A stretch of 64,000 nucleotides of DNA from Fimbriimonas ginsengisoli Gsoil 348 (GTDB lineage Bacteria > Armatimonadota > Fimbriimonadia > Fimbriimonadales > Fimbriimonadaceae). Location: contig NZ_CP007139.1 in assembly GCF_000724625.1 (NCBI RefSeq), forward strand, positions 4,154,001 to 4,218,000, written 5' to 3'. Positions 31,226-59,061 of this stretch are shown piece by piece. The notes under the pieces are model-generated. The model worked only from the letters and a program-made list of their open reading frames with translations, was not told the DNA's origin and made no database searches. How positions within the stretch are numbered: position 1 is the stretch's first letter; each line of letters begins with the position of its first letter. A program made the position numbers and the translations under genes.

Positions 31226-32509
31226 CTAGGGGTCGATCGTTACGAGCTTGGCGGGGCCGCGGTAGGCCTTGCGGCCGTTCCACGTTACGGTAACTTCGCC
31301 GGTCAACCCCATCGCGAGGAGGTCGACGGTTAGTTTGGGAGTGCCTTGGCTGTCGATTTTCACCGACGATCCGTCGACGGTGCATTCGAAGCTTGGCGAT
31401 CCGCTGACGGCGAGGTCGCGAACCATTGTCACGCCCCAAACTCCGTTGTGCTCCGCGGTATCGGCGACGAACGCGAAATGTGACGGGCGTTTTCTCACCT
31501 TGCCGTCGAAGAAACGCATCGCCGCCCGTTGAGCCTCTTGAAGATAGTTATGCCCCGTCGCCGGCTCCTCGCGGTAGGGCGGCATCGGCCCGTACTTGGC
31601 GATCTCGTCGCGGAGGAGGCGGGCGGTGGGGGCGAGGCCATCATCCGCGCCTACCCAGATCCACAGGGGAAGGTTCGCCACGTTTCTACCGAGGCCGACG
31701 GCGGCGTCTTGTTTCATCGAGCGCGCCGCGGGCGCTAGCATCGCGGCGGCCGCCCATTTGTCCGGAGTTCGAGTCGCGATCCTCCACGTCCCGCCGCCGC
31801 CCATGCTGAACCCGTAGAGATAGTACCGGGCCGGGTCCAGCTTTACGGTAGCTTCGGCGTCCGCCAATGCCTCCCAAACATCGGTTTCTCCGATGTCGGT
31901 GTATCCGGAGTTGCCGCGGCCGAATGGATAGACGTGAAATCCGAGGCGTTCCACCATCGGCACCATCGTCGGTCGCTTATATTCCTCCGCCTTGACGCCC
32001 TCCGGCAACCCAAGCTGGCCTTGCGCCCACCCAAGCGGGTGAGGGTCGCCGGCCCCGTGTAGTTCGAAATAGAGAGGATATGCCTGTTCCGGCTGCCAGC
32101 TCTTGGGGAGCGTCAGCCAATAATGGGCTACCGTGTTATCTCGTTTCGAGACGTACGCCATCAGCAGGGATCGGCGACCCTCGAGGTAGCTATTCCAGTC
32201 GCCGGCATCCGCGTCGAACCCTCGCTGTAACTGGCTCACAATCTCCGTGGTTTGGGCGCTGACGTCGTTGGCGCCGCCACAGTAGATTGCCGCTCGACCT
32301 TCTTCGGTGAGCAGAAGTGCCCGCACGGAGCGGAGATGCCGACGGAAAAGGTTAGGCTGGGCCGTCGGTTCGATCGCATCGATGCGGGCTACTAGGCGAT
32401 CGATCGCCGTGGTCAATTCTCGCAATGGAACTCCTTTGGGCTTGGTTGTCCCCTGCCCGATCCCGGTGGCGATCACCACCATCAACAACACCGACGTAAA
32501 GGCACTCAT
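31226..32509 (-). CDS. Secreted alpha/beta hydrolase
   Basis: The 427-aa product has a signal peptide (MSAFTSVLLMVVIATGIGQG), a helical N-terminal region, and a hydrolase core with YPLYFELHGAGDPH (oxyanion), YYLYGFSMGGGGTW (Ser elbow GFSMG), WIWVGADDGLAP (acid) and ATGHNYLQEA (His). A beta domain of about 90 residues follows. It is probably a secreted esterase or peptidase. Start ATG 32509 is preceded by GAGGAG and lies 10 nt after the deacetylase stop, so it is the last gene of the sugar operon that begins with lacI at 39509. Confidence 0.82.
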   Translation of the reverse strand: MSAFTSVLLMVVIATGIGQGTTKPKGVPLRELTTAIDRLVARIDAIEPTAQPNLFRRHLRSVRALLLTEEGRAAIYCGGANDVSAQTTEIVSQLQRGFDADAGDWNSYLEGRRSLLMAYVSKRDNTVAHYWLTLPKSWQPEQAYPLYFELHGAGDPHPLGWAQGQLGLPEGVKAEEYKRPTMVPMVERLGFHVYPFGRGNSGYTDIGETDVWEALADAEATVKLDPARYYLYGFSMGGGGTWRIATRTPDKWAAAAMLAPAARSMKQDAAVGLGRNVANLPLWIWVGADDGLAPTARLLRDEIAKYGPMPPYREEPATGHNYLQEAQRAAMRFFDGKVRKRPSHFAFVADTAEHNGVWGVTMVRDLAVSGSPSFECTVDGSSVKIDSQGTPKLTVDLLAMGLTGEVTVTWNGRKAYRGPAKLVTIDP

Positions 32510-47678: not shown

Positions 47679-48620
47679 GTGCGCGTTTACGTTGGCATCA
47701 CGGACCGGGATTGGTTTGAGATGCTCTCGGCGATGCGGCCGGATGAGGTGAACTTTTGGAAGCCGGGGGAGCGGGGGTCCTTTGGTTCGCTTAAGCAGGG
47801 CGAGCTATTCTTATTCAAGCTTCATTCGCCGTTGAACTACATCGTTGGCGGCGGATACTTCGTGAGGTTTGTGCCGGATCTGCCGGTTTCGTTTGTCTGG
47901 GACGCGTTCCGGGAGAAGAACGGGGTTAGGTCGATGGGCGAGTTTCTGACTCGAATCCGGAAGTACCGGGCAGGGGTGGTCGATGCGGATCCAAAGATTG
48001 GGAGCATCGTGCTGACGGAGCCGTTCTGGTTTCCCAGGGACGCGTGGATACCGGCGCCGGCGGATTGGCCGAAGAGCACGGTGCAAGGGAAGGGTTTCGA
48101 TGCGCTGGATGGGCGAGGGCACGAATTGGTAGCCCAAGTCCGCGAACGGCTTGGTCAGCCGACCGAGCCTGAGCTGGCAATTCCGGGCGACTTCGTGCGT
48201 GAGCGGGACCGAGGTCGGGAGCGGTATGGCGAGGCGGTTCGCAAGGTGCGTCTTGGGCAGGGCGGTTTTCAAGTCGAAGTCGTCGAGGCATACGAGCGGC
48301 GGTGTGCATTGACGGGTGAGAAGACATTGCCGGTGCTGCAGGCGGCGCACATCGTGCCGTATTCCGAGGGTGGGGAGCACGAGGTGCAGAACGGGCTTCT
48401 ACTTCGATCCGATATGCACACGCTGTTCGACCGGGGGTATTTGACGATAACGCCCGATTACCGCGTCGAGGTGAGCGCGCAGATTCAGGAGCAGTTTACA
48501 AACGGGAAGCTGTACTACAGCTATCACGGTCAGGAGCTGCGGTCGTTGCCGTCCGAGTCGCGAAGACGGCCGTCGGCGGAGTTCCTACAGTGGCACAACG
48601 ACCGCGTGTTTGTACCATAG
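47679..48620 (+). CDS. HNH endonuclease with N-terminal PUA/EVE-like domain
   Basis: The 313-aa product ends in an HNH domain of the HNH_2 type: CALTGEKTLPVLQAAHIVPY, SEGGEHEVQNGLLLRSDMHT and LFDRGYLTI (residues about 209-256), with the catalytic AAHI His and the N/H pair. The first about 75 residues (MRVYVGITDRDWFEMLSAMR to NYIVGGGYFVRF, with VNFWKP) look like a PUA/EVE-type reader domain. That layout, reader plus HNH nuclease, fits modification-dependent (type IV) restriction; this is inference from domain order. Start GTG 47679. No methylase gene is adjacent. It lies at the left end of the mobile, repeat-rich island. Confidence 0.8.
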   Translation: MRVYVGITDRDWFEMLSAMRPDEVNFWKPGERGSFGSLKQGELFLFKLHSPLNYIVGGGYFVRFVPDLPVSFVWDAFREKNGVRSMGEFLTRIRKYRAGVVDADPKIGSIVLTEPFWFPRDAWIPAPADWPKSTVQGKGFDALDGRGHELVAQVRERLGQPTEPELAIPGDFVRERDRGRERYGEAVRKVRLGQGGFQVEVVEAYERRCALTGEKTLPVLQAAHIVPYSEGGEHEVQNGLLLRSDMHTLFDRGYLTITPDYRVEVSAQIQEQFTNGKLYYSYHGQELRSLPSESRRRPSAEFLQWHNDRVFVP

Positions 48621-48712: not shown

Positions 48713-48830
48713 GATCCCTCCCGACGCGCCGTCGGGAGGGTCCCGCGCCAGCGGGGCCTCCATCTGAGAAACGCGTAGCGGATTGCCCGGCCGGTGGCCG
48801 GACCCTCCCGACGGCGCGTCGGGAGGGATC
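48713..48830. repeat. REPIN-like pair of palindromes in inverted orientation, just 5' of RAYT
   Basis: A 31-nt sequence at 48713-48743 (starting GATCCCTCCCGACGCGCCG) is repeated as its exact reverse complement at 48800-48830. Each arm is itself a palindrome (CCCTCCCGACG...GTCGGGAGGG). Two inverted REP units separated by 56 nt form a REPIN, the mobile unit associated with RAYT transposases, and the RAYT gene begins 6 nt later. Confidence 0.88.
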
Positions 48831-48835
48831 AGGCG

Positions 48836-49252
48836 ATGGCATGCGAGGCCCGGCGAAAGCCGGTGCTTGCGGAGCCCGAATTCACCGACTCCTGCGCGGC
48901 GAATCTCGCACGGGCGGCTGTGGAAAACGGTTGCATCGTCCCGATCTACACGATCTTGCCGGATCACGTGCACGTCCTGATCATGGGCGCGGAGGACTCG
49001 AGTCAACCAAAGAAAGCCATGGAGCGGTTTAAGTATCTCTCAGGAACTTGGCTCTTCCATAAGAGACCTGGGGTCGCTTGGCAAGACGATTTCCACGATC
49101 GTAACATCCGCTCCTCCGACGATTGGCCGAACCATGTCCGATACATCGCCTTGAACCCCGTTCGCGCCGGTCTCTGCGAGAACATTAAGGATTGGCCATT
49201 CACCGGTTCCATCGGCACCGACCTGGACGAGATCCTTGACACGACCATTTGA
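48836..49252 (+). CDS. REP-associated tyrosine transposase (RAYT, Y1/IS200-like), 5'-trimmed
   Basis: The product of about 138 aa has the HUH motif in YTILPDHVHVLIMG and the late motif NHVRYIALNPVRAGLCENI, which contains the conserved region of the catalytic Tyr in RAYTs. RAYTs nick single-stranded DNA at REP hairpins. ATG 48836 gives MACEARRKPVLAEPEF. A related copy at 52153 has about 18 more N-terminal residues (YRGRKSVSFTACEARRKPVL), so this copy has lost its N-terminal end, and a REPIN now takes its place. An in-frame ATG at 48794 would translate the palindrome and is unlikely. The transposase core looks intact. Confidence 0.85.
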   Translation: MACEARRKPVLAEPEFTDSCAANLARAAVENGCIVPIYTILPDHVHVLIMGAEDSSQPKKAMERFKYLSGTWLFHKRPGVAWQDDFHDRNIRSSDDWPNHVRYIALNPVRAGLCENIKDWPFTGSIGTDLDEILDTTI

Positions 49253-49639
49253 TGTGAAATGTGGTAGTCGATGCGAAACGGAGGTGAGTGGACTGTAGGG
49301 AAATGAAGCAAAGCGGAATCGGGTCCGAAAGTTGGCTCGTACCTGGGCGAGAGCGTTTCACATTGTTGACCGCGGCGCAAATGGTCGGAAGGCCTCCGCC
49401 ATCCAAGAACCAACCTGCGCCGACACAACCTCCAGTCGCGAGGCAAACCAGCCCGGATCGACACGAAGACAGCGCACCCAAAGATGATTTGTGTTGGAGA
49501 GATGCCCGAGATCTGAGAGATGGCTTCTAACCTTCTCTTAGGTCGCCAAGCGAGAAGCATGGACGGAAACTATGGTTATTTGGGCTGGTCCAGGCGACGA
49601 GGGCCGGATCAATTTTAGATGGTTAGGATTGAGGGCTCC
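49253..49639. repeat. 387-nt gap with degenerate REP sequences
   Basis: GTTGGCTCGTACCTGG (49331-49346) and the inverse CCAACCTGCGCCGACACAAC (from 49410) are diverged copies of the REP units at 51832-52045. Between them lies GTTTCACATTGTTGACCGCG. I see no gene. Confidence 0.65.
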
Positions 49640-50710
49640 TCAACGAGAAGTGAGGGCTCTAAGCTGGTCCAGTGAGCCATTGAATACTTCCAAGTGTAGT
49701 TTCTTGCTAAGTCCTTCCATCTGACCCGCCCGCGAGTACTGCTCGAAATCACAGGACACGCGTTTGCCAGTTGCGCCCGTGTGAGAATGTCCACCCCAGT
49801 AACCCGTTGAGCCCGTCCACCTCAGATTCGCTTTTAGATCTGGATCGTCTGCCAAGAAAGCGCACAGATCTCGAGGCCCCGCAATTATCACCTTTCGGTT
49901 GCTAAGCTTCTCAATCTCCCGAACAAAGGATTTAAGGATGCCGGCTTTCGATCGAAAACTATCGAGCCGCTTGTCGACGCGACCCGGTTCCACACCGACC
50001 AGCAGCGGGAGGTCTGATGGCTGAGGCTGCACAACCTCATACATATGGCGGGCTTGGTCCGCCCCCGAGGTCTGGAACGAGAGGTAGTGGTAGGCACCCC
50101 TCAGAATTCCGGCACGACCTGCTGCAGCCCAGTTAATATCAAAAGTTGGATCTGTAAACGTTACACCCTCCGTGGCCTTAATGAACGCAAAACAAACACC
50201 TCGCGACTTGAGGTGTTTCAAAGCAGCTTCTACACGTTCAACAGTCAAAGGGGTACGCCTAGGAGCACCATCGATGTCCCAATGGTTCATATCTATTCCA
50301 ATGGGTCCGTGGTTTCCACCTGGTTTGTTGGGAGGCAACGGCAGATTAGAGACGGCGTCACTAAGTTCCTGGGCAAGGCGGGGCTGTGTATGTGTCAGGT
50401 AAGGCAATACTTCTCCTACCTTGTTTGCGACGCGTGCAGAAGACTGTTGGGCTTTACGAATCTTGAGATTGGCCGCAATTAGCTGATCATTCTTCTTTTG
50501 CAACTCCCGGTTCTTCTCCTGTAGAGCGGCGACGATCGCTTCGGCGGACCTGGCCTTCTCCAGCTCAGTTACGTGGAGGACCTCTAGGCGATGGCGCTCC
50601 GACTCGCTCCTGAGAGCAAAGAGAACTGCACAGAAAGATCCCAGCAAGCCTGCGACAGCAACAGAGTTAGTTATCGCAATTCGTATTGTAAAGGATCGAT
50701 TTTCAGTCAT
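49640..50710 (-). CDS. Membrane-anchored GH25-type lysozyme with a missing catalytic Asp
   Basis: The 356-aa product has an N-terminal membrane helix (residues about 10-33), a coiled coil (about 36-90, KARSAEAIVAALQEKNRELQ), and a GH25 muramidase domain from about 135: GPIGIDMNHWDIDG (Asp140), FAFIKATEGVTFTDPTFDINW, AGILRGAYHYLSF, LPLLVGVEPG. In active GH25 enzymes the last motif is D-x-E; here it is G239-V-E241, so one of the two acidic residues is replaced by Gly. It may be weakly active or a peptidoglycan binder. Its start overlaps the end of the upstream membrane-protein gene by 8 nt. Base composition is lower in G+C than the core genes. Confidence 0.82.
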   Translation of the reverse strand: MTENRSFTIRIAITNSVAVAGLLGSFCAVLFALRSESERHRLEVLHVTELEKARSAEAIVAALQEKNRELQKKNDQLIAANLKIRKAQQSSARVANKVGEVLPYLTHTQPRLAQELSDAVSNLPLPPNKPGGNHGPIGIDMNHWDIDGAPRRTPLTVERVEAALKHLKSRGVCFAFIKATEGVTFTDPTFDINWAAAGRAGILRGAYHYLSFQTSGADQARHMYEVVQPQPSDLPLLVGVEPGRVDKRLDSFRSKAGILKSFVREIEKLSNRKVIIAGPRDLCAFLADDPDLKANLRWTGSTGYWGGHSHTGATGKRVSCDFEQYSRAGQMEGLSKKLHLEVFNGSLDQLRALTSR

Positions 50711-51245
50711 GGGCGGAAGAATGGGGAGAGGGTATTTCGTGTGGTAACCGTTGTAGAACTGTGATTCTCGTCTCTGAATTCAACTCTTGCCGCAATTTCT
50801 CAGTGATCTTACGAACCTCTTCCTCCGCCTTCTTGATTCCTTCGAGGCTCTTGGGCACTTGCCGGTGGCGATTTCGGCAACTTGCCCATTCTATATCGAC
50901 CCTGGCTTTCAGTCCTAAGCAACGAAGAAAGGAGCCCACTTGAGGAGCTGCAGTGAGCGAGAAGCATGCGGTGAGCCCAGCAATGGCTGGGACGGCATTT
51001 GGAATGATTAACTGCTTTCCAACATAGGGGCCAATAATGAGGGCAATTGCATAGAGTCCGCGTGTGAAAAGCAAGCCCCTGGCAAGGCCCTTGACAGACC
51101 TGAAGTGGTCGCAGATGGAGAACTCGAAGGTATCTCCCGCATCTTGGTTTGGATCCGATTTCATACTCTCTGGGAGTGACCTGCTCATTTCGCCGAACAC
51201 CGCGGCCAAGGACAGTGCCCATTGTATCAATAATTGCATTATCAC
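50703..51245 (-). CDS. Membrane protein of unknown function, partner of the GH25 gene
   Basis: The 180-aa product has a hydrophobic start (MIMQLLIQWALSLAAVFGEM), a hydrophobic region at about residues 58-105 (LLFTRGLYAIALIIGPYVGK, IAGLTACFSLTAAPQVGSFL) that could form two helices, and a charged helical C-terminus (GIKKAEEEVRKITEKLRQEL). I do not recognise the family. It overlaps the GH25 gene by 8 nt, so they are co-translated. A phage-lysis-like pair (membrane protein plus lysozyme) is possible, but the protein does not look like a known holin. Confidence 0.6.
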   Translation of the reverse strand: MIMQLLIQWALSLAAVFGEMSRSLPESMKSDPNQDAGDTFEFSICDHFRSVKGLARGLLFTRGLYAIALIIGPYVGKQLIIPNAVPAIAGLTACFSLTAAPQVGSFLRCLGLKARVDIEWASCRNRHRQVPKSLEGIKKAEEEVRKITEKLRQELNSETRITVLQRLPHEIPSPHSSAHD

Positions 51246-51566
51246 GCCAGAAATTGGTGCACAAAAACGTCAGCGGTCTGGCCTATGAAAGTGTTGTAGC
51301 CATCTGGATGCCTATAGCGTACAGAGGCAGTCTGAAAAATTGCCCGAGCCACCGGCTGTGGAACCGATTGGGGCCGGTCTCTGATTTATCGCTCCGGATC
51401 TGAACCTACTGGGTTGTGCGATGCAGCCGGTGATGGCCGTCCAGTTATCGCTCGCGCGGACGACTTAGTGGTGAAGGTCGTGCTGCCACCGAACGCCCGG
51501 GCCGCGCTGAAAAAACTCCAGACCGAGAGGTGTCTTAACCGATCCATGGCGGCTTAGGGTCGGCTG
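51246..51566. other. 321-nt gap with a possible gene remnant
   Basis: On the + strand, 51336-51557 is open without a start and encodes a tail such as ARADDLVVKVVLPPNARAAL, which looks like the C-terminal end of a once-functional protein (vaguely FRG-domain-like). There is no start codon or ribosome-binding site. I call it a remnant at most. Confidence 0.3.
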
Positions 51567-51809
51567 TTAGCGTCCGTGCAGGTAGCGTTCCCGTGGACAT
51601 AATCCGGCATGATGGTGTAAACGGGATGGTCTGGCGAACTCGTTGGTGGCTCCGGCGAGGAGGTGGACGCAAGCTCGAACGATTTCAGGGTCGGCGAGTT
51701 TTGGGCGCCGGTGGAGCTCGCATGCGGTGAAGGAGACGGTCTTCTGGCCGTTGTAAGCGGCCTCCGGTAGCCGAAGTTTCTTCATCCGCGGCGGCGTCAT
51801 GACGGGCAT
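51567..51809 (-). pseudogene. RAYT transposase remnant, frameshifted
   Basis: MKKLRLPEAAYNGQKTVSFTACELHRRPKLADPEI is the N-terminal part of a RAYT and aligns with the copy at 52153 (PPDAAYRGRKSVSFTACEAR). Near 51625 the frame shifts; the adjacent frame reads VYTIMPDYVHGNAT, the HUH region, where the second His of the motif is followed by unrelated sequence. The rest of the transposase is missing. Confidence 0.75.
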
Positions 51810-51812
51810 TTT

Positions 51813-52045
51813 AACGCGAAGCGTTGTAGCCGCAGGTTGGTTCGTACCTGCGCGGGGGTGTTTTGGTTCGAGGACCGCCGCGCCTATCGGACGTTGTTGT
51901 CCCGTTTTGACGAGGTGTGGAGGTCGTTTGGGGGTTGTCCGCAGGTACGAGCCAACCTGCGTCTACACAACCTGCGGTTGTAAACCCATACGAATCGTTC
52001 GCACCTAACGCGAAGCGTTGTAGTAGCAGGTTGGCTCGTACCTGC
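51813..52045. repeat. REP cluster: three 20-nt palindromes with flanking GAAGCG palindromes
   Basis: GCAGGTTGGTTCGTACCTGC (51832-51851), its inverted form GCAGGTACGAGCCAACCTGC (51941-51960) and GCAGGTTGGCTCGTACCTGC (52026-52045) are copies of one REP. The first and third are each preceded by AACGCGAAGCGTTGTAG. The first two face each other as a REPIN would. They lie between two RAYT remnants. No gene is present in this 340-nt gap. Confidence 0.85.
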
Positions 52046-52152
52046 TCTAAAGTCTTGGCGGTGTGACGCTCACCTCAACCACCCGTCGTACCTCCGGGAC
52101 CCAGTTGCGCATACACGCGCTGCGCGCGTAGGAACGGCGTGCCGTATATCGA

Positions 52153-52392
52153 ATGAAGCCCCAGCGACCTCCGGACGCAGCCTACCGTGGTCGAAAGTCG
52201 GTCTCATTCACAGCATGCGAGGCCCGCCGAAAGCCGGTACTCGCGGAACCCGAATTCGCCGACTCCTGCGCCGCGAGTCTCGCAAGGGCTGCCGTGGAAA
52301 ACGGCTGCATCGTCCCTATCAACACGATCATGCCGGAGCACATGCGCGTCCTGATCATGGGCTTCAAGCGGCCGGTGATGTTAGAATCTGGG
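52153..52392 (+). pseudogene. RAYT transposase remnant, 3' truncated
   Basis: MKPQRPPDAAYRGRKSVSFT and ACEARRKPVLAEPEFADSCA, then SLARAAVENGCIVPINTIMP and EHMRVLIMG, is a RAYT N-terminal half about 85% identical to the copy at 48836. The HUH motif DHVHVLI has become EHMRVLI, which would be inactive. Similarity stops at about 52370, after which the frame runs into the 3' end of the convergent PIN gene. Confidence 0.8.
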
Positions 52393-52393
52393 C

Positions 52394-53668
52394 TTACCCG
52401 TCTTCTAGTTCAAGCAAGTTCTTTAGGACAGTCTTGAGTTCTTCTAGAGACCCGGGTTCTTCCATCAACTCGAATAGTTGCCAATCTACAGAACCAGGGT
52501 CTTTCTTGTTAATCAATTCGGATAACGTTTCCCGAACAGTAGGCTGAACAGCTGTTTTATAGCGTAATAGAGCCTGTCCTTCAATCCTTCGCTCATCGTC
52601 AAACGCATCATGAATAATTATGTCTCGCAACATTTCTGGCTTGCTTTCCAAATCCCGCATAAACTTATGGTTAGCTTCTTTCTTTAGGATTTCAGCGTCC
52701 GTCAATAGTTTGCGCAAAGCTTGAATCGCCTGATTTGATGCTGCTTGATTTTTGAAGATCGCCCGATTTCTGTACCGTTCACGAACTTCATGCTGTTTCA
52801 CATCCCGAACAACTTTCTCTGGCTGCTTCAGAACCTTCAGCAATTCGCTCCATTCGACAACATGGACGCTATGATTATTCGATACTTGAGCGTATTCATA
52901 AGATAACTCGTAACGAAGATGAAGCGGACCATTGCTTTGGTGAAACCAGTCCGTTTTGGCATCGCTGGAGACAAAGATAGCGTTCCGTCTCTTATTAGCC
53001 GCTTCTTGGAGAATAGTCAGCCAAATAATGATATCACCTGCGCCATGGTCATTCTTCGACTTATCGGCATAACCAGGCGGAATATTGTGTTTGATGCGGC
53101 GCTCGATTTCACTTAGAAGCGCATCTTCGCTCATAGTACACTCGACAATGGAATGAGCTTGGACAAACGATTTATATAAATTTGTTACCGGATCATTCCA
53201 TCGCCAGGACTTTATCACGTTCACAAGATTGTCGTGAGCCTTATTGTATTCCAGTCTCGCCTTTGCTAGGGCCGTTGCTTCTTTTTCAAGGGCCTTGAAT
53301 TCTGCCAGATCGGCCAAGAACCTGTGCTTAATTTGTTCGGGCTGCTTGGCTTGGCTAAAAGAATTGAGTAGACCACTATGAATTTCCCCAATCTTGTTGG
53401 GACGGTGTTTTGCGAATTCGCGAAAAGCGCGGGCCGGAATCCGAAGCCTATCTGATTCTGACAGCTGTTGTAGTACTGCTCCGAAAGAGCTTAAATCTTC
53501 ATTTGAAACTCTATAAAGGAAAAGAAGTGCATTTGCATCAAGGAACACTAGCGCTGATTCTGTTACCTCTCTTAGAGATTTTATGTCAAGATCAAGTAGA
53601 AGAGTTGGGTCCGGATATAGATTCTCCAGAGCGAATACGTCGTCCTTTTCAAACTTAATTTCTTGCAT
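52394..53668 (-). CDS. PIN-like domain protein (PIN_8/DUF4935 type), low G+C
   Basis: The 424-aa product has a PIN-like nuclease core: ALVFLDANALLFLYRVS (first Asp near residue 44), RIPARAFREFAKHRPN, YADKSKNDHGAGDIIIWLTI (Asp residues) and NAIFVSSDAKTDWFHQ (last Asp). The C-terminal half is helical and charged. Proteins of this type are found in defence islands and as stand-alone RNases, but the target is unknown. Base composition is clearly lower in G+C (AT-rich codons such as AAA, TTT, ATT) than all neighbours, which points to recent acquisition. No partner gene is adjacent. Confidence 0.78.
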   Translation of the reverse strand: MQEIKFEKDDVFALENLYPDPTLLLDLDIKSLREVTESALVFLDANALLFLYRVSNEDLSSFGAVLQQLSESDRLRIPARAFREFAKHRPNKIGEIHSGLLNSFSQAKQPEQIKHRFLADLAEFKALEKEATALAKARLEYNKAHDNLVNVIKSWRWNDPVTNLYKSFVQAHSIVECTMSEDALLSEIERRIKHNIPPGYADKSKNDHGAGDIIIWLTILQEAANKRRNAIFVSSDAKTDWFHQSNGPLHLRYELSYEYAQVSNNHSVHVVEWSELLKVLKQPEKVVRDVKQHEVRERYRNRAIFKNQAASNQAIQALRKLLTDAEILKKEANHKFMRDLESKPEMLRDIIIHDAFDDERRIEGQALLRYKTAVQPTVRETLSELINKKDPGSVDWQLFELMEEPGSLEELKTVLKNLLELEDG

Positions 53669-53766: not shown

Positions 53767-56700
53767 TCAACTACAACCGCTGGTTTCGCCGCACGTATCG
53801 CACTTCAAACAAACCCCGTTGCGGACCATAGTGAAGGCGCCGCAGTTGGTGCAGGGGTCGCCTTCGTAGCCTTTTAGGCGGGCTTGCCTCACTTTCTCGG
53901 CGATTTCGCCGCCGGGCAGGCGGGGTGTTGGGGTGTTACGGTGTTGGGGTGTTGGGGCAGCGGAGGGCGTTGGGCGTTGGGCGTTGGGCGTTGGGGCCGG
54001 AGCGAACAGGTTCGTTTGGGCGCTTTCTACCAGAACTTTGCCGTTGGAGCCGTTGCCGCTGACGTAGCGGTCTTCGTATTGGGCCGGGGCGTTTTTCTGC
54101 TTTTGCTCCAGGGTCCAGGTGGGAGAGCCTACAGCTTGGGGATTATCGTCGAGCGGCAACGACGCTTGGGGCGCGTTGTCGCGGGTGGCGTAGAAACCCT
54201 TGGAATCGTGGGGCTGGGCGGCGCGGCCGGGGATTTGGCCTTCTAGGTGGTCGTCTTCTACTTCTTCTTCCTCGAAGTCGGGCACTTGGCTGGGGCGGCC
54301 GACGGTGTCGCCTTGGAGGTCTTCGGGCTTTACCTGCACGAGATCGGTGCGGGCTAGGTAGGAGAGGGCGAGCTCGCGGAAGATGTAGTCGATGACGGAC
54401 GTCGACATCTTGATGTTGTCGTGGCCCTGGACCGAGCCATTCGGCTCGAAGCGGGTGAAGACGAATGCCTCGACGAACTCCTCCAGCGGAACGCCGTACT
54501 GGAGGCCGAGGGAGATCGCGATGGCGAAGCAGTTCATCAACGACCGGAACGCGGCCCCCTCGCGGTGCATGTCGATGAAGATCTCGCCGAGCGAGCCGTC
54601 TTCGAACTCACCGGTCCGCAGGTAGACCTTGTGTCCGCCGACGCGCGCCTTCTGGGTGTATCCCTTGCGCCGACCGGGAAGGGTTCGGCGGCGGCTTATA
54701 TACCGATAGACTAGCTTTGTTGCTGCCTCCTCGGCTAGTGATGTTTGATGATTGATGACTGATGGTTGATCGGGCACGGAGGAGAAGGAACTCGCTGGGG
54801 CGAGTTCGGGCTGCCGGCTGGAAGCCGGCGCCACTTCTTCTTCTTCCAACGTCGCCTCCAGGATCGCCGCCGCGGCGTCGTCGGACGAGGCGTTTAGCGG
54901 CTGAGAAAGCTTGGAGCCGTCTCGGTAGAGGGCGTTGGCCTTCAGGCCGAGCGTCCAGGAGAGCCAGTAGGCGTCGTTGACGGCCTTGACGGTGGCTTCG
55001 CCGGGGAGGTTGATGGTTTTGCTGATGGCGCCGGAGAGGAACGGCTGGGCGGCGGCCATTTGGCGGATGTGGCCCTCGGCGGAGATGAAGCGGGTGCCGA
55101 TCTTGCCGCAGCGGTTGGCGGTGTCGAACACGGGCAGGTGCTCCGGCTTCAGGCCCGGGGCGCCTTCCACGGTCATGGTTCCGCAGCAGTAGAGGTTGGC
55201 GGCGTCGATCTCGGCGCGGGTCCAGCCGAGCTCGGCGAGCATGTTGAACGACCAGTCGTTGAGCTGCTCGTCGGTGAAGCCGAGGACGTTGTGGCAGAAG
55301 TCGTCACCGAAGGTCCACTTGTTGAAGGCGAAGCCGATCTCGAAGGCGTTCTCCAGCGCGGTTTCCAGCGCGGCGAGCTGATCGGGTCCGAACCCCTTCG
55401 CCCGCAGCGTCTCGTGGTTGATATACGGCGCGCCCTTGAGTGACTTGTGGCCGAGGGCGTAGCCGATGATCTCGCCGATCTGCGCGTCGGAGTAGCCGAG
55501 CTTAGTGAGCGACGGCGGAACCGACTGGTTAATGATCTTGAAGTAGCCGCCGCCGGCGAGCTTCTTGAACTTCACGAGGGCAAAGTCCGGCTCGATTCCG
55601 GTGGTGTCGCAATCCATGATGAGGCCGATGGTGCCGGTGGGGGCGAGCACGGTGACCTGGGCGTTTCGGAAACCGTTTGCGGTTCCCAGCTCCAGCGCTC
55701 GGTCCCAGGCGCGGTGGGCGGCTTGTAGCATGTCGGGCGGGCAGATCTTTTGGTCGATGCCGACGGGAAGGACGCTGAGCCCTTCGTATTCGTCGGCCGT
55801 GTTGTAGGCGGCGCGGCGGTGGTTGCGGATCACGCGGAGCATGTGCTCCTTGTTCGCCTCATAGCGGGGGAACGGCTGCTGCTCCTTCGCCATTTCGGCC
55901 GACGCGGCGTAGCTGCCGCCGCCGAGGATGGCGGTAAGGGCGCCGGTGATAGCGAACCCTTCCTGCGAATCGTAGGCGTAGCCCATCTGCATCAGCAGCG
56001 CGCCAAGGTTGGCATAGCCGAGGCCGAGGGTGCGGAAATCGTAGCTAAGCTGGGCAATGTCCTTACTGGGGAACTGCGCCATCAACACCGAGATCTCGAG
56101 CACGACCGTCCAAACACGGATGGCGTGCTGGTAGCCGGTGAGGTCGAACTTGCCGGTCTGCTGGTCGTAGAACCGGACCAGGTTGATGCTGGCGAGGTTG
56201 CAGGCAGTGTCGTCAAGGAACATGTATTCGGAGCAGTTGTGAACGACGAGGCCGTTCGCCACGAAGTGGTGGCTCTCCGGTTCGGTCAGGTCATACACAT
56301 CTTCGATTCCGCACGGCGTGAGGCTAGCCACGCGATCAAACATCGGGTCCGCGTAGGCGCTCACGCGGCGGTTGAGATCGGCGAGAGCGTTCGCCTTGCG
56401 GCTCTCGGGCAGGAAGCCGATCTCTTGCTCGAAGGCGAGCCGGGAGGCGCGGCTGATCCGCAGACTGTGCATCTGCTGGACCTCGCACTCTTTGTGGCCC
56501 CCTTGGCCATCGGGCAACATCGCGGAGGTGTTGGCGAGCGGACGTCGGTTCTCGTAGATCTTGCCCTTGATGCCGAAGCCGAGGAGGAGGAGCTGAACCT
56601 GTTGGATCAGGGTCAGGCTGGTGCTATCGAGCGAGACGTACTGGGACTTCTCGCCATAGTTGGCGACGGTGCCGTCGGCGGAGAAGAGGCCTCGAAGAAT

Positions 56701-58782
56701 GGCCGCTTGGGATTCGCGGTCGAGCTCGAAGACGCGGTTGCGGAACGCTTTGTGGGCGGCGCCTTCGCCGAGGGTGGCGATCTCTTCGATCGCTTCGAGC
56801 ACGGGCCGGACGGAAGTTCCGACGCGGAGGCTGGTCGGCGTGGTTTGGATCGTGGTCGTCCGCTTGGATCGTCCATCGACAGCCAGGGAATCCTTGACGG
56901 TTTCCAGGTTCCGGCGCATCCGTTCGGCCAGTTCGGCCTCGTCGTGGCCGAGGGTGACGAAGAGGAAACGCTGGTCGTTGGCACCCTTGGTGAGGCAGCC
57001 GTCTCCGACGGCGGCGCCGACTAGCTCGGCGAGCGGGCGGTCGATCGACTCGGTCCCGAAGCCGGGACGCTCCAGGACCACTACGTCGTCCAGCATCAGC
57101 TCACAAGCGGGCACGTCGCCGCGGTTGGCGGTGAGAACGCGGTGGTCGGCGGTGAGCTTGAGGCGGTAGCCGGCAGCGGTCTTGAGCTCGAAGACCGGCT
57201 TGGTGCCGGTCTTGAAGACCTTCTCGACGGTGACCTTGCGACCGTGGCCGTTGATGACCTCAACGCGCTCGCCGACGAGGTCGACGATGCGCCGGTACCC
57301 CTTGGCGGTGGCGACGAGGGTGTCGCCGGTCACGCATGGGTTGCTCGCGTTGATGCGGCCATCAACGGGGCAGGTGTGCCACTCGTTGATGGTGGTGTCG
57401 TACTGCAGGCCGGGGTCGGCGGAGTTCCAGGCGGCTTCGCAGATCTGCTCCCAGAGGTCTTGGGCGTCGACCGTCTTAATTGTTTTTCCAGTGGTCCGGG
57501 CGGTGAGGTTCCAGGTGTCGCCTTTCTCCACGGCGTGGAAGAACGCGTTCGGCACGCGGACGGAATTGTTGCTGTTCTGCCCGGAGACGGTGATGTACGC
57601 CTCGCTCTCGTAGCCGGTGTCGAAGGTGGGGAACTCGATCTTGGTGAACCCCTGCTGCGCGAACTGGATGGCGCGCTGAATGTAATTCGGCGGAATCTCG
57701 TCGAGCTTGGCCTCGGCGATGGCGAGGCGGAGGGCTTTATTCGTTCTGGGGTTGAAATCGGGGGTGCCAGGCGCGAGGTGTGAGGCGTGAGGCGTGAGGG
57801 AAGAGGAATCTTCACGCTTCGCGCTCTGCGCTTTGCCACCTTCGTAGCATGCCTTCATCACCGCGTTAAGGTGCCGCTCGTTCAGCTTGGAGCCGGTTAC
57901 CAGCGCGGCTACTTTTTGCTCCTCTTTGACCTTCCAGTTGATGAACTCTTCGATATCGGGGTGGTCCAGGTCGAGGCAGACCATTTTGGCGGCCCGGCGG
58001 GTGGTGCCGCCGGATTTAATGGCGCCGGCCGATCGGTCGCCGACGCGCAGGAACGACATGAGGCCGCTGCTCTTGCCGCCGCCGCTCAGCTTTTCGTTAC
58101 CGGCGCGGAGTTTGGAAAAGTTGGTGCCGACGCCGGAGCCGTACTTGAAGATGCGGGCCTCGCGGGTCCACAGGTCCATGATTCCGCCCTCGTTGACGAG
58201 GTCGTCCTTCACGCTGAGGATGAAGCAGGCGTGGGGCTGGGGTCGCTCGTACGCGTTTTGGCTCCGCTCCAGCTCGTTCGTCTTGGGGTTGACGTAGTAG
58301 TGCCCCTGAGGAACGCCGGTGATGCCGTAGGCGAAGTGGAGTCCGGTATTGAACCACTGCGGCGAGTTCGGTGCGGCGACCTGGCGGGCGAGCATGTGCA
58401 CGAGCTCGTCGTAGAACGCCTGGGCGTCTTCGGTGGTGTCGAAGTAGTTGTTCTTCTCGCCCCAGTATCGCCAGCAGCCGGCGAGGCGGTGGAAGACCTG
58501 GCGAGAGTCGGTCTCGCGGTCTTCCTTGGGGGTGAGGACGTCTTTCAGAGACGGCGCGTACTCCGCGCCGTGGATCTCGCCCACGGGGAGTCCGGCCTTT
58601 CGGAAATATTTCTGGGCCAGGATATCGGTGGCGACCTGCGACCAGTGCGCGGGGACCATCACGTTTTCCATAAGGAAAACGGTGGAGCCGTCCGGGTTAC
58701 GGATCTCGCTGCGGCGGGGCTCGAAGGGAATCCCCGAGTAGGGGTCTTGGCCGGACGTGGTGAAGTAGCGGGAGATTTTCAT
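53767..58782 (-). CDS. nrdJ: Vitamin B12-dependent ribonucleotide reductase with intein and three in-frame repeat arrays
   Basis: The 1671-aa precursor starts [20 protein letters not shown] (ATG 58782; the frame extends upstream to 58860 through a repeat). Class II RNR motifs are [21 protein letters not shown]-type [65 protein letters not shown] and [22 protein letters not shown]-terminal zinc ribbon with redox Cys ([26 protein letters not shown]) ends the protein. It makes deoxyribonucleotides with adenosylcobalamin. Residues 483-849 are an intein. Around residues 317-337, 1338-1348 and 1596-1620 the frame reads through period-7/8 arrays in linkers. nrdR lies just upstream on the same strand and probably regulates it. 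Confidence 0.96.
53922..53996. repeat. Period-8 then period-7 array, in frame in nrdJ (site 3)
   Basis: GGGGTGTT-GGGGTGTT-ACGGTGTT-GGGGTGTT (53922-53953) is followed by four GGGCGTT units (53965-53992). On the minus strand they are read as [20 protein letters not shown], a Pro/Thr linker just before the C-terminal zinc ribbon. The same GGGCGTT unit occurs near 59685-59712. Confidence 0.9.
54739..54770. repeat. TGATGNT period-7 array, in frame in nrdJ (site 2)
   Basis: TGATGTT-TGATGAT-TGATGAC-TGATGGT-TGAT is read on the minus strand as part of [13 protein letters not shown]. It is followed at about 54808 by the GGCTGGAAGCCGGCGCCAC palindrome, read as [10 protein letters not shown]. The whole linker joins the barrel domain to the C-terminal region. 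Confidence 0.85.
56236..57336 (-). other. LAGLIDADG intein in NrdJ (367 residues)
   Basis: The intein starts at Cys (codon 57334-57336) after extein NASNP with [20 protein letters not shown] (block A). [15 protein letters not shown] is block [12 protein letters not shown] and [12 protein letters not shown] are the two LAGLIDADG motifs, with a DOD-type endonuclease between. [21 protein letters not shown] is blocks F and G, ending in His-Asn (56236-56238), followed by extein Cys+1 of CSEYMFLDD. All splicing residues (Cys1, the T-x-x-H of block B, His-Asn, Cys+1) are present, so it should splice itself out and leave a normal NPCSEY active-site stretch. Confidence 0.95.
57773..57833. repeat. Period-7 array with inverted arm, in frame in nrdJ (site 1)
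   Basis: GCGAGGT-GTGAGGC-GTGAGGC-GTGAGGG (57773-57800) and the opposing CACGCTT-CGCGCTC-TGCGCTT (57813-57833) encode a linker read as [20 protein letters not shown]. It lies before the conserved DFNPRTN segment. Confidence 0.85.
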
Positions 58783-59061
58783 GAGACTAATGCGCGAGGC
58801 GCTGGGCGTTAAGGCGTTGGGAGGGGGCGCGGAAGGCCCTCCGGAATATGCCGAAGGCATTACAGACGACAGCGAAGGGTTGCGAGGAACGAGCTACCCT
58901 GGAACAGCGAAGTGATGGGTCCCTACCTCGAAGAGGTTGCGTTCGGCGGACGGTGAAGGGAATGGTCACGCAAAGGCGCGAAGGCGCAAAGGGGAAGGGA
59001 GACCGAGTGGGTATGGCGCAACCTTCATGTCCTCGCGCCTCACGCTTCACGCCTTGCTCTC
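58783..59061. repeat. Repeat-filled leader between nrdR and nrdJ
   Basis: This gap holds a short GGCGTTGGG-type stretch near 58795-58825. A 31-nt segment at 58872-58902 (GCGAAGGGTTGCGAGGAACG...) is the near-exact reverse complement of 61503-61533, and CCTCGAAGAGGTTGCG (58926-58941) is the exact reverse complement of 61541-61556. A period-7/8 array with arms lies at 58966-59062 (GCGCCTC-ACGCTTC-ACGCCTT-GCTCTCT). No NrdR box is evident. Confidence 0.75.

Follow-up and report, generated by a model that had tools for sequence, protein, structure and literature searches.

A probable dead REPtron in Fimbriimonas ginsengisoli with a covarying mini-hairpin in its GTAG repeats

In our study, a stretch of 64,000 nucleotides of the Fimbriimonas ginsengisoli Gsoil 348 genome (G000:C1:4154001-4218000, the window) was analysed for transposase remnants and palindromic repeats. 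Three copies of a gene for a REP-associated tyrosine transposase (RAYT), named W1, W2 and W3, were found together with two families of palindromic repeats, REP1 and REP2 (REP, repetitive extragenic palindrome), and a small hairpin, hairpin A, was recognized as a part of the REP2 unit (Table 1). The genome comprises 5,231,762 bp in one contig and was published as a single 5.23-Mb circle; the part of the genome paper covered here mentions 12 transposase genes and does not mention palindromic repeats (PMC4072686). Genome-wide repeat counts were obtained by pattern searches and from 1.2 Mb of fetched genome sequence. Up to 3 mismatches were allowed for the REP1 core and for REP2, and reversed patterns served as controls. 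The comparison set consisted of 60 related genomes (61 including G000), and the relatives recovered by the RAYT search belong mostly to Fimbriimonadaceae and other Armatimonadota. Tandem repeats were also searched at the locus and none was found.

W1 scores 86.6 bits against the NCBIfam RAYT model NF047646 (cut-off 80), aligning with profile positions 19-145 of 146, and Pfam Y1_Tnp also matches it. W1 retains an HUH motif, DHVH, and also the catalytic tyrosine, the latter in the segment RYIALNPVRAG, which aligns with the tyrosine region of the E. coli TnpAREP structure 4er8. RAYT identity was further indicated by a sequence-search match to 4er8 at 7.6e-13. When the modelled relative L114, the closest full-length one in the tree (predicted local distance difference test score 92), was submitted to Foldseek, 4er8, which shows TnpAREP on a REP hairpin, was found at rank 1 (2.0e-8). 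The initial annotation had noticed this conserved core and the loss of an N-terminal region from W1, and both observations hold; it had also called W1 the active copy, which is not supported. In the alignment the full-length relatives extend 20-30 residues further and W1 is without about 25 N-terminal residues. Mapped on the L114 model, W1 starts at about residue 26, and the greater part of strand beta-1 (residues 21-28), together with a short helix at residues 13-16, falls in the missing segment. Because the residues before about 26 are missing, the complete catalytic fold is not present and W1 is a remnant of the RAYT family rather than a complete member. Judged from this model, W1 is a 5'-truncated gene and probably not an active RAYT.

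The other two copies are also broken, in agreement with the graveyard of remnants proposed earlier. W2 keeps the N-terminus, its HUH motif is lost (EHMR) and its similarity ends after about 70 residues, while W3 carries two in-frame stops in addition to frameshifts. W1 and W2 are near copies, with 89% identity over 150 nt and 10 synonymous and 7 amino-acid-changing differences, and the tree places W3 with W1 (94/76, from only 40% of the columns). No complete gene of the W1 lineage was found in this genome, where the lineage is otherwise represented only by L063, a gene at 2101964 with a frameshift at 2102238-2102248, and by part of a C-terminus at 2936183. The assembly is an older one obtained by pyrosequencing. 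Further RAYT-like genes, at 32003, 2004134, 1982590, 2041774 and other places, are of distant types.

REP2, the second repeat family proposed for this locus, is present here in three clear and two diverged copies. Genome-wide it gave 128 matches (63 + 65), with 0 in the control, and a GTAG tag was found in 95 of 110 units. REP2 thus has the layout of a GTAG-tagged REP, in which a 20-40-bp palindrome that carries GTAG at the 5' foot is present in many copies. Among the copies read there were 32 distinct head-to-head dimers (REPINs, REP doublets forming hairpins), mostly with 71-73 bp between starts. REP2 lies 15 nt before W3 and about 107 nt before W2, and the diverged copies lie behind W1; with 128 matches in 5.2 Mb this proximity is not a matter of chance. 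Moreover, most RAYT loci checked in other Armatimonadota have GTAG repeats of their own on either side, and in G030 a RAYT (L216) is enclosed by two copies of a REP that shares the REP2 core GCAGGTTGG[C/T]TCGTACC. Since REP2 adjoins all three copies in the window and GTAG repeats bracket the RAYTs of relatives, REP2 and not REP1 is taken as their partner, which corrects the assignment of repeat to transposase at this locus.

When the repeat families were paired with RAYT genes over the whole genome, two further pairs were identified, and a partner of REP1 was not found. REP3 (CCGGCACCTACGTGTGCCGC; 38 matches, control 4) has two copies on each side of the frameshifted RAYT L063. REP4 (GTAGCRTCGGC..GCCGAYG; 228 matches, control 0) outnumbers all other repeat families seen here. 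It flanks, in inverted orientation on either side, an apparently intact RAYT at 1982590-1982853 (L347), with which it probably forms the live pair.

The inverted pair in front of W1 had been described as a perfect REPIN of this gene. The pair is real: its arms (48713-48746 and 48797-48830) are 34 nt long and 97% identical, the outer 31 nt are exact, and 5 bases separate it from the W1 ATG. Its left end, folded as single-stranded DNA, gave a z-score of -4.3, and the REP1 core occurs at 37 places in the genome (control 0), so both palindromes of the window are repeated families. According to 30 loci read, the complete REP1 has the form GAT-palindrome-TCCCGC(n)GCGGGG-spacer-GCCCGACCGATGGTCGGA-palindrome-ATC and measures about 100-118 bp, and besides it there are half elements and palindromes that stand singly. 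The arms before W1 are therefore the two ends of one element, which has GAT...ATC flanks and no GTAG or GTGG tag. Rfam gave only sub-threshold hairpin look-alikes (miRNA models) for it.

An active W1 with the 31-nt pair as its own REPIN, REP1 and REP2 having come from two successive RAYT lineages, would agree with the retained HUH motif, tyrosine and open frame, with the score above the RAYT cut-off, and with a repeated element ending 5 nt from the ATG. It is nevertheless highly improbable, as beta-1 is mostly missing and REP1 is untagged. No REP1 was found within 1.5 kb of 14 other Y1/RAYT loci examined, where weak matches were at chance level, nor was any transposase bracketed by REP1 ends found in this genome. 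The 60 related genomes contain no REP1 except one 3-mismatch match in G030, and their RAYTs have GTAG repeats. The two repeat families of the earlier proposal stand, but its two RAYT lineages are not supported, since all three copies are beside REP2 and group together. REP1 as the repeat of a RAYT was consequently rejected, it being untagged and linked to no examined RAYT gene beyond this locus; its position about 2 kb from a Y1 gene at 1573735 is near chance by a rough estimate.

The homology of W1 to W2 starts 9 nt after the end of REP1, and the missing start of the W1 gene was sought on the other side of REP1 and is not there. On this sequence evidence REP1 is best described as an unrelated, untagged palindromic element, here of about 112 bp, that occupies the place of the missing 5' part of W1. 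It lies within 200 bp of REP4 at 16 of 30 loci compared with 12% of intergenic points (from crude gene calls), and REP4 is on both sides at four REP1 loci; hence REP1 favours repeat-rich intergenic places. REP1 inside or beside REP4 dimers was observed, for example, at L199, L201 and L213. Two 653-bp IS200-like Y1 copies elsewhere in the genome (L060 and L062, at G000:C1 2310916 and 18747) are 98.5% identical and have terminal inverted repeats (TIRs) of about 100 bp (about 82%); this element looks recently moved and unrelated to REP1.

The REP2 unit was found to hold more than a tagged palindrome. In REP2, and in REP3, which is its sister family, the layout is hairpin A, GTAG and hairpin B, and both hairpins fold. 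A perfect hairpin A directly 5' of GTAG is present in 75 of 110 distinct REP2 units and 12 of 16 REP3 units, compared with 5% in shuffled upstream sequence. The stem is 5-6 bp long and varies (AACGC, ACGGC, ACGTCC, ACGCC, ACGAC, ACAACC and others) with complementarity kept. Of 85 units, 65, 63 and 71 have Watson-Crick bases at pairs 2, 3 and 4 from the outer end; shuffled controls averaged 34, 38 and 46 and reached at most 47, 49 and 54, in a test that is inflated by kinship among the repeat copies. Single descent is insufficient to account for the covariation, because at least three well-populated stem types and several rare ones occur. Among the 75 perfect hairpins the loop is GAA in 53, GCA in 10, AAA in 4 and GGA in 2, almost always with a C-G closing pair. 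Triloops of the C-GNA-G class, of which d(GCGAAGC) is an example, rank with the most stable mini-hairpins of DNA. Homology between REP2 units starts at a T directly 5' of hairpin A (93%). Hairpin A belongs to the repeat unit and its stem covaries.

In the 1.2 Mb of fetched sequence the three commonest stems (AACGC-GAA 9, ACGGC-GAA 8, ACGTCC-GAA 6) stand before GTAG in 23 of 23 cases and never alone, and 30 of 33 C-GNA-G hairpins followed by GTAG are REP2 or REP3. These counts bear on the idea that hairpin A is a preferred target, the REP inserting beside small palindromes that were already there. GTAG dimers inserted into palindromes are reported for A. variabilis and T. roseum (PMC3733652), and within one dimer the stem of hairpin A is often not the same in both arms, as such targeting might produce, but empty targets would then be expected as well as occupied ones. 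Further, the GNA loop strand is the GTAG strand in both arms of the REP2 dimer, and with the loop locked in this way insertion beside targets appears unlikely. The same strand rule bears on a role of hairpin A in RNA, as a terminator or in mRNA stability, instead of a role in the transposition of single-stranded DNA. Transcription of REPs is common (PMC3733652), and hairpins A and B both fold; in each transcript, however, one arm of a dimer would read GNA and the other TNC, which a transcript-level role would not predict, and we consider this role still less probable than targeting.

The locus is most probably a dead REPtron (with a probability of about 0.78), in which three broken copies of one RAYT clade lie beside their cognate REP2 and hairpin A would bring the (C)T site to GTAG. 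In other systems TnpAREP is known to cut single-stranded DNA at a C|T close to the REP, and in a tested group 3 member GTAG serves as the guide (PMC8266576). REP2 presumably spread as single-stranded DNA by means of this RAYT lineage, through HUH/tyrosine cleavage and strand transfer, and every copy of the lineage found in this genome would have decayed afterwards. Hairpin A may fold on the displaced strand and present the 5' (C)T cleavage site to the GTAG guide, and a unit that is excised or copied would thus begin at the T 5' of hairpin A; the hairpin would do what linear spacing does in other REPs. As the transposases of the lineage are all broken in this genome, REP2 is probably no longer spread by it. 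With about 128 REP copies in a complete genome, and all of the family's own RAYT copies there broken, REP2 helps to ask how long REPs outlive their transposase.

Several observations weigh against this reading. The palindrome core of REP2 is also close to the REPs of another RAYT clade (that of L216), so the pairing of REP2 with W1 rests on linkage and not on a congruent tree, and REP2 could still be mobilized by an unrelated intact RAYT of this genome. Only 59% of units have a C in front of the T, TT being next commonest. About one third of the REP2 units have no perfect hairpin A, which has either decayed or is dispensable. Outside the group, RAYT relatives use GTAG repeats in which no hairpin A was seen, so the hairpin is not needed in general. 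Nor can it be tied to one RAYT clade, as the placement of L063, the gene associated with REP3, gave p 0.33 for a single clade in the approximately unbiased (AU) test. As a clean marker of RAYT clades the palindrome core is unsupported, the core GGNTGNNTCGTNCC being spread over several of them.

In another Fimbriimonas genome (G010) the hairpin A module stands before a different palindrome, 18 of 22 units carrying the ACGC/GCGT stem in full, and the RAYT of that genome is the sister of W1 (97/90). Across the 61 genomes a clear excess of GCGAAGC-N2-3-GTAG was found only in G000 (80) and G010 (20). Tentatively, and at odds that we place somewhat below even, the REPs of this Fimbriimonas group may be double-hairpin units in which a very stable C-GNA-G mini-hairpin bridges the cleavage site to GTAG and is kept while palindrome and stem sequence change. 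If true, single-strand transposition would have here a structural means of its own for choosing the cleavage site. Hairpin A offers a testable extra part of a REP, with covariation, for cleavage-site choice by TnpAREP.

The transposase, the GTAG repeats and their dimers are of an already known kind, and GTAG repeats have been reported in the PVC group, including Verrucomicrobia (PMC3733652); no REP/RAYT report for Armatimonadota was found in the literature searched. As in the TnpAREP/RAYT REPtrons of E. coli, Pseudomonas and Stenotrophomonas, an HUH/tyrosine gene lies beside GTAG palindromes with head-to-head dimers and many copies, whereas here the transposases are broken, REP2 has an extra covarying mini-hairpin 5' of GTAG, and the host belongs to Armatimonadota. 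The ends of IS200/IS605 elements (IS608, ISDra2), in the part of PMC6006769 covered here, share the subterminal hairpin, the guide tetranucleotide at its 5' foot, the cleavage site further 5' and the HUH fold. On the other hand, REP2 has a hairpin between cleavage site and guide, and no complete insertion sequence is present here. The nearest precedent is the composite REPs of P. putida and P. fluorescens (Di Nocera 2013, PMC3733652), where a second stem-loop is joined to a GTAG unit. In those composites, degenerate GTAG-1 units and unrelated stem-loops make up long TIRs that enclose a transposase gene, whereas REP2 consists of intact GTAG units with a covarying hairpin in a family of about 128 copies. 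REP1 resembles the TIRtrons (Y1 elements flanked by TIRs, PMC3733652) in being a family of inverted, partly self-complementary terminal repeats, but no transposase with REP1 ends accompanies it in this genome. None of the REP types in the passages of PMC6006769 covered here has a covarying hairpin 5' of GTAG, which does not prove priority.

Table 1. Coordinates in the window of the RAYT copies and the palindromic repeats
Feature	Position	Strand	Basis
W1, 5'-truncated RAYT, 138 aa from ATG	48836..49252	+	NF047646 86.6 bits; alignment with full-length relatives
W2, RAYT 5' fragment, near copy of W1	52153..52377	+	D1, 89% DNA identity
W3, third RAYT copy, frameshifts and stops	51417..51809	-	E 2.7e-7, 2 TAA
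REP2 unit: T, hairpin A (51813-51825, AACGC-GAA-GCGTT), GTAG (51826-51829), CC, palindrome B (51832-51851)	51812..51851	+	D3
REP2 unit: palindrome B (51941-51960), CTAC (51963-51966), hairpin A (51967-51981, ACAACC-GCA-GGTTGT on - strand)	51941..51981	-	I2
REP2 unit: hairpin A (52007-52019), GTAG (52020-52023), TA, palindrome B (52026-52045)	52006..52045	+	D3
Diverged REP2 unit behind W1	49326..49345	+	I5/D2, 90% over 20 nt
Diverged REP2 unit behind W1, opposite orientation	49407..49425	-	I6/D6, 89% over 19 nt
REP1 palindrome, left end (GATCCCTCCCGACGCGCCGTCGGGAGGGTCC)	48713..48743	+	inverted repeat I1; genome-wide family
REP1 interior, two different inner hairpins (CCCGC..GCGGG; CCGGCC..GGCCGG)	48744..48799	.	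30-locus comparison
REP1 palindrome, right end	48800..48830	-	inverted repeat; genome-wide family

Between and beside the RAYT remnants, two stretches of the window on the minus strand (52394-53668 and 49640-51245) have a G+C content of 43-48% and 51-54%, compared with about 62%. They carry genes for a PIN-domain protein and, beside a small neighbour, for a glycosyl hydrolase 25, and are likely to be later insertions. An HNH_2 gene at 47679-48620 (+) scores 73.8 of 180 bits for a phosphorothioated-DNA-binding restriction endonuclease family, which is well below the cut-off. From its translation alone, the long open reading frame at 53767-58860 (-) reads like a ribonucleotide reductase with an intein-like insert. 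The RAYTs L112 and L120 of JADZEW01, titled Methanoregulaceae archaeon, group with Fimbriimonadaceae; the record itself appears to match G030, and the public name of this metagenome-assembled genome looks wrong.

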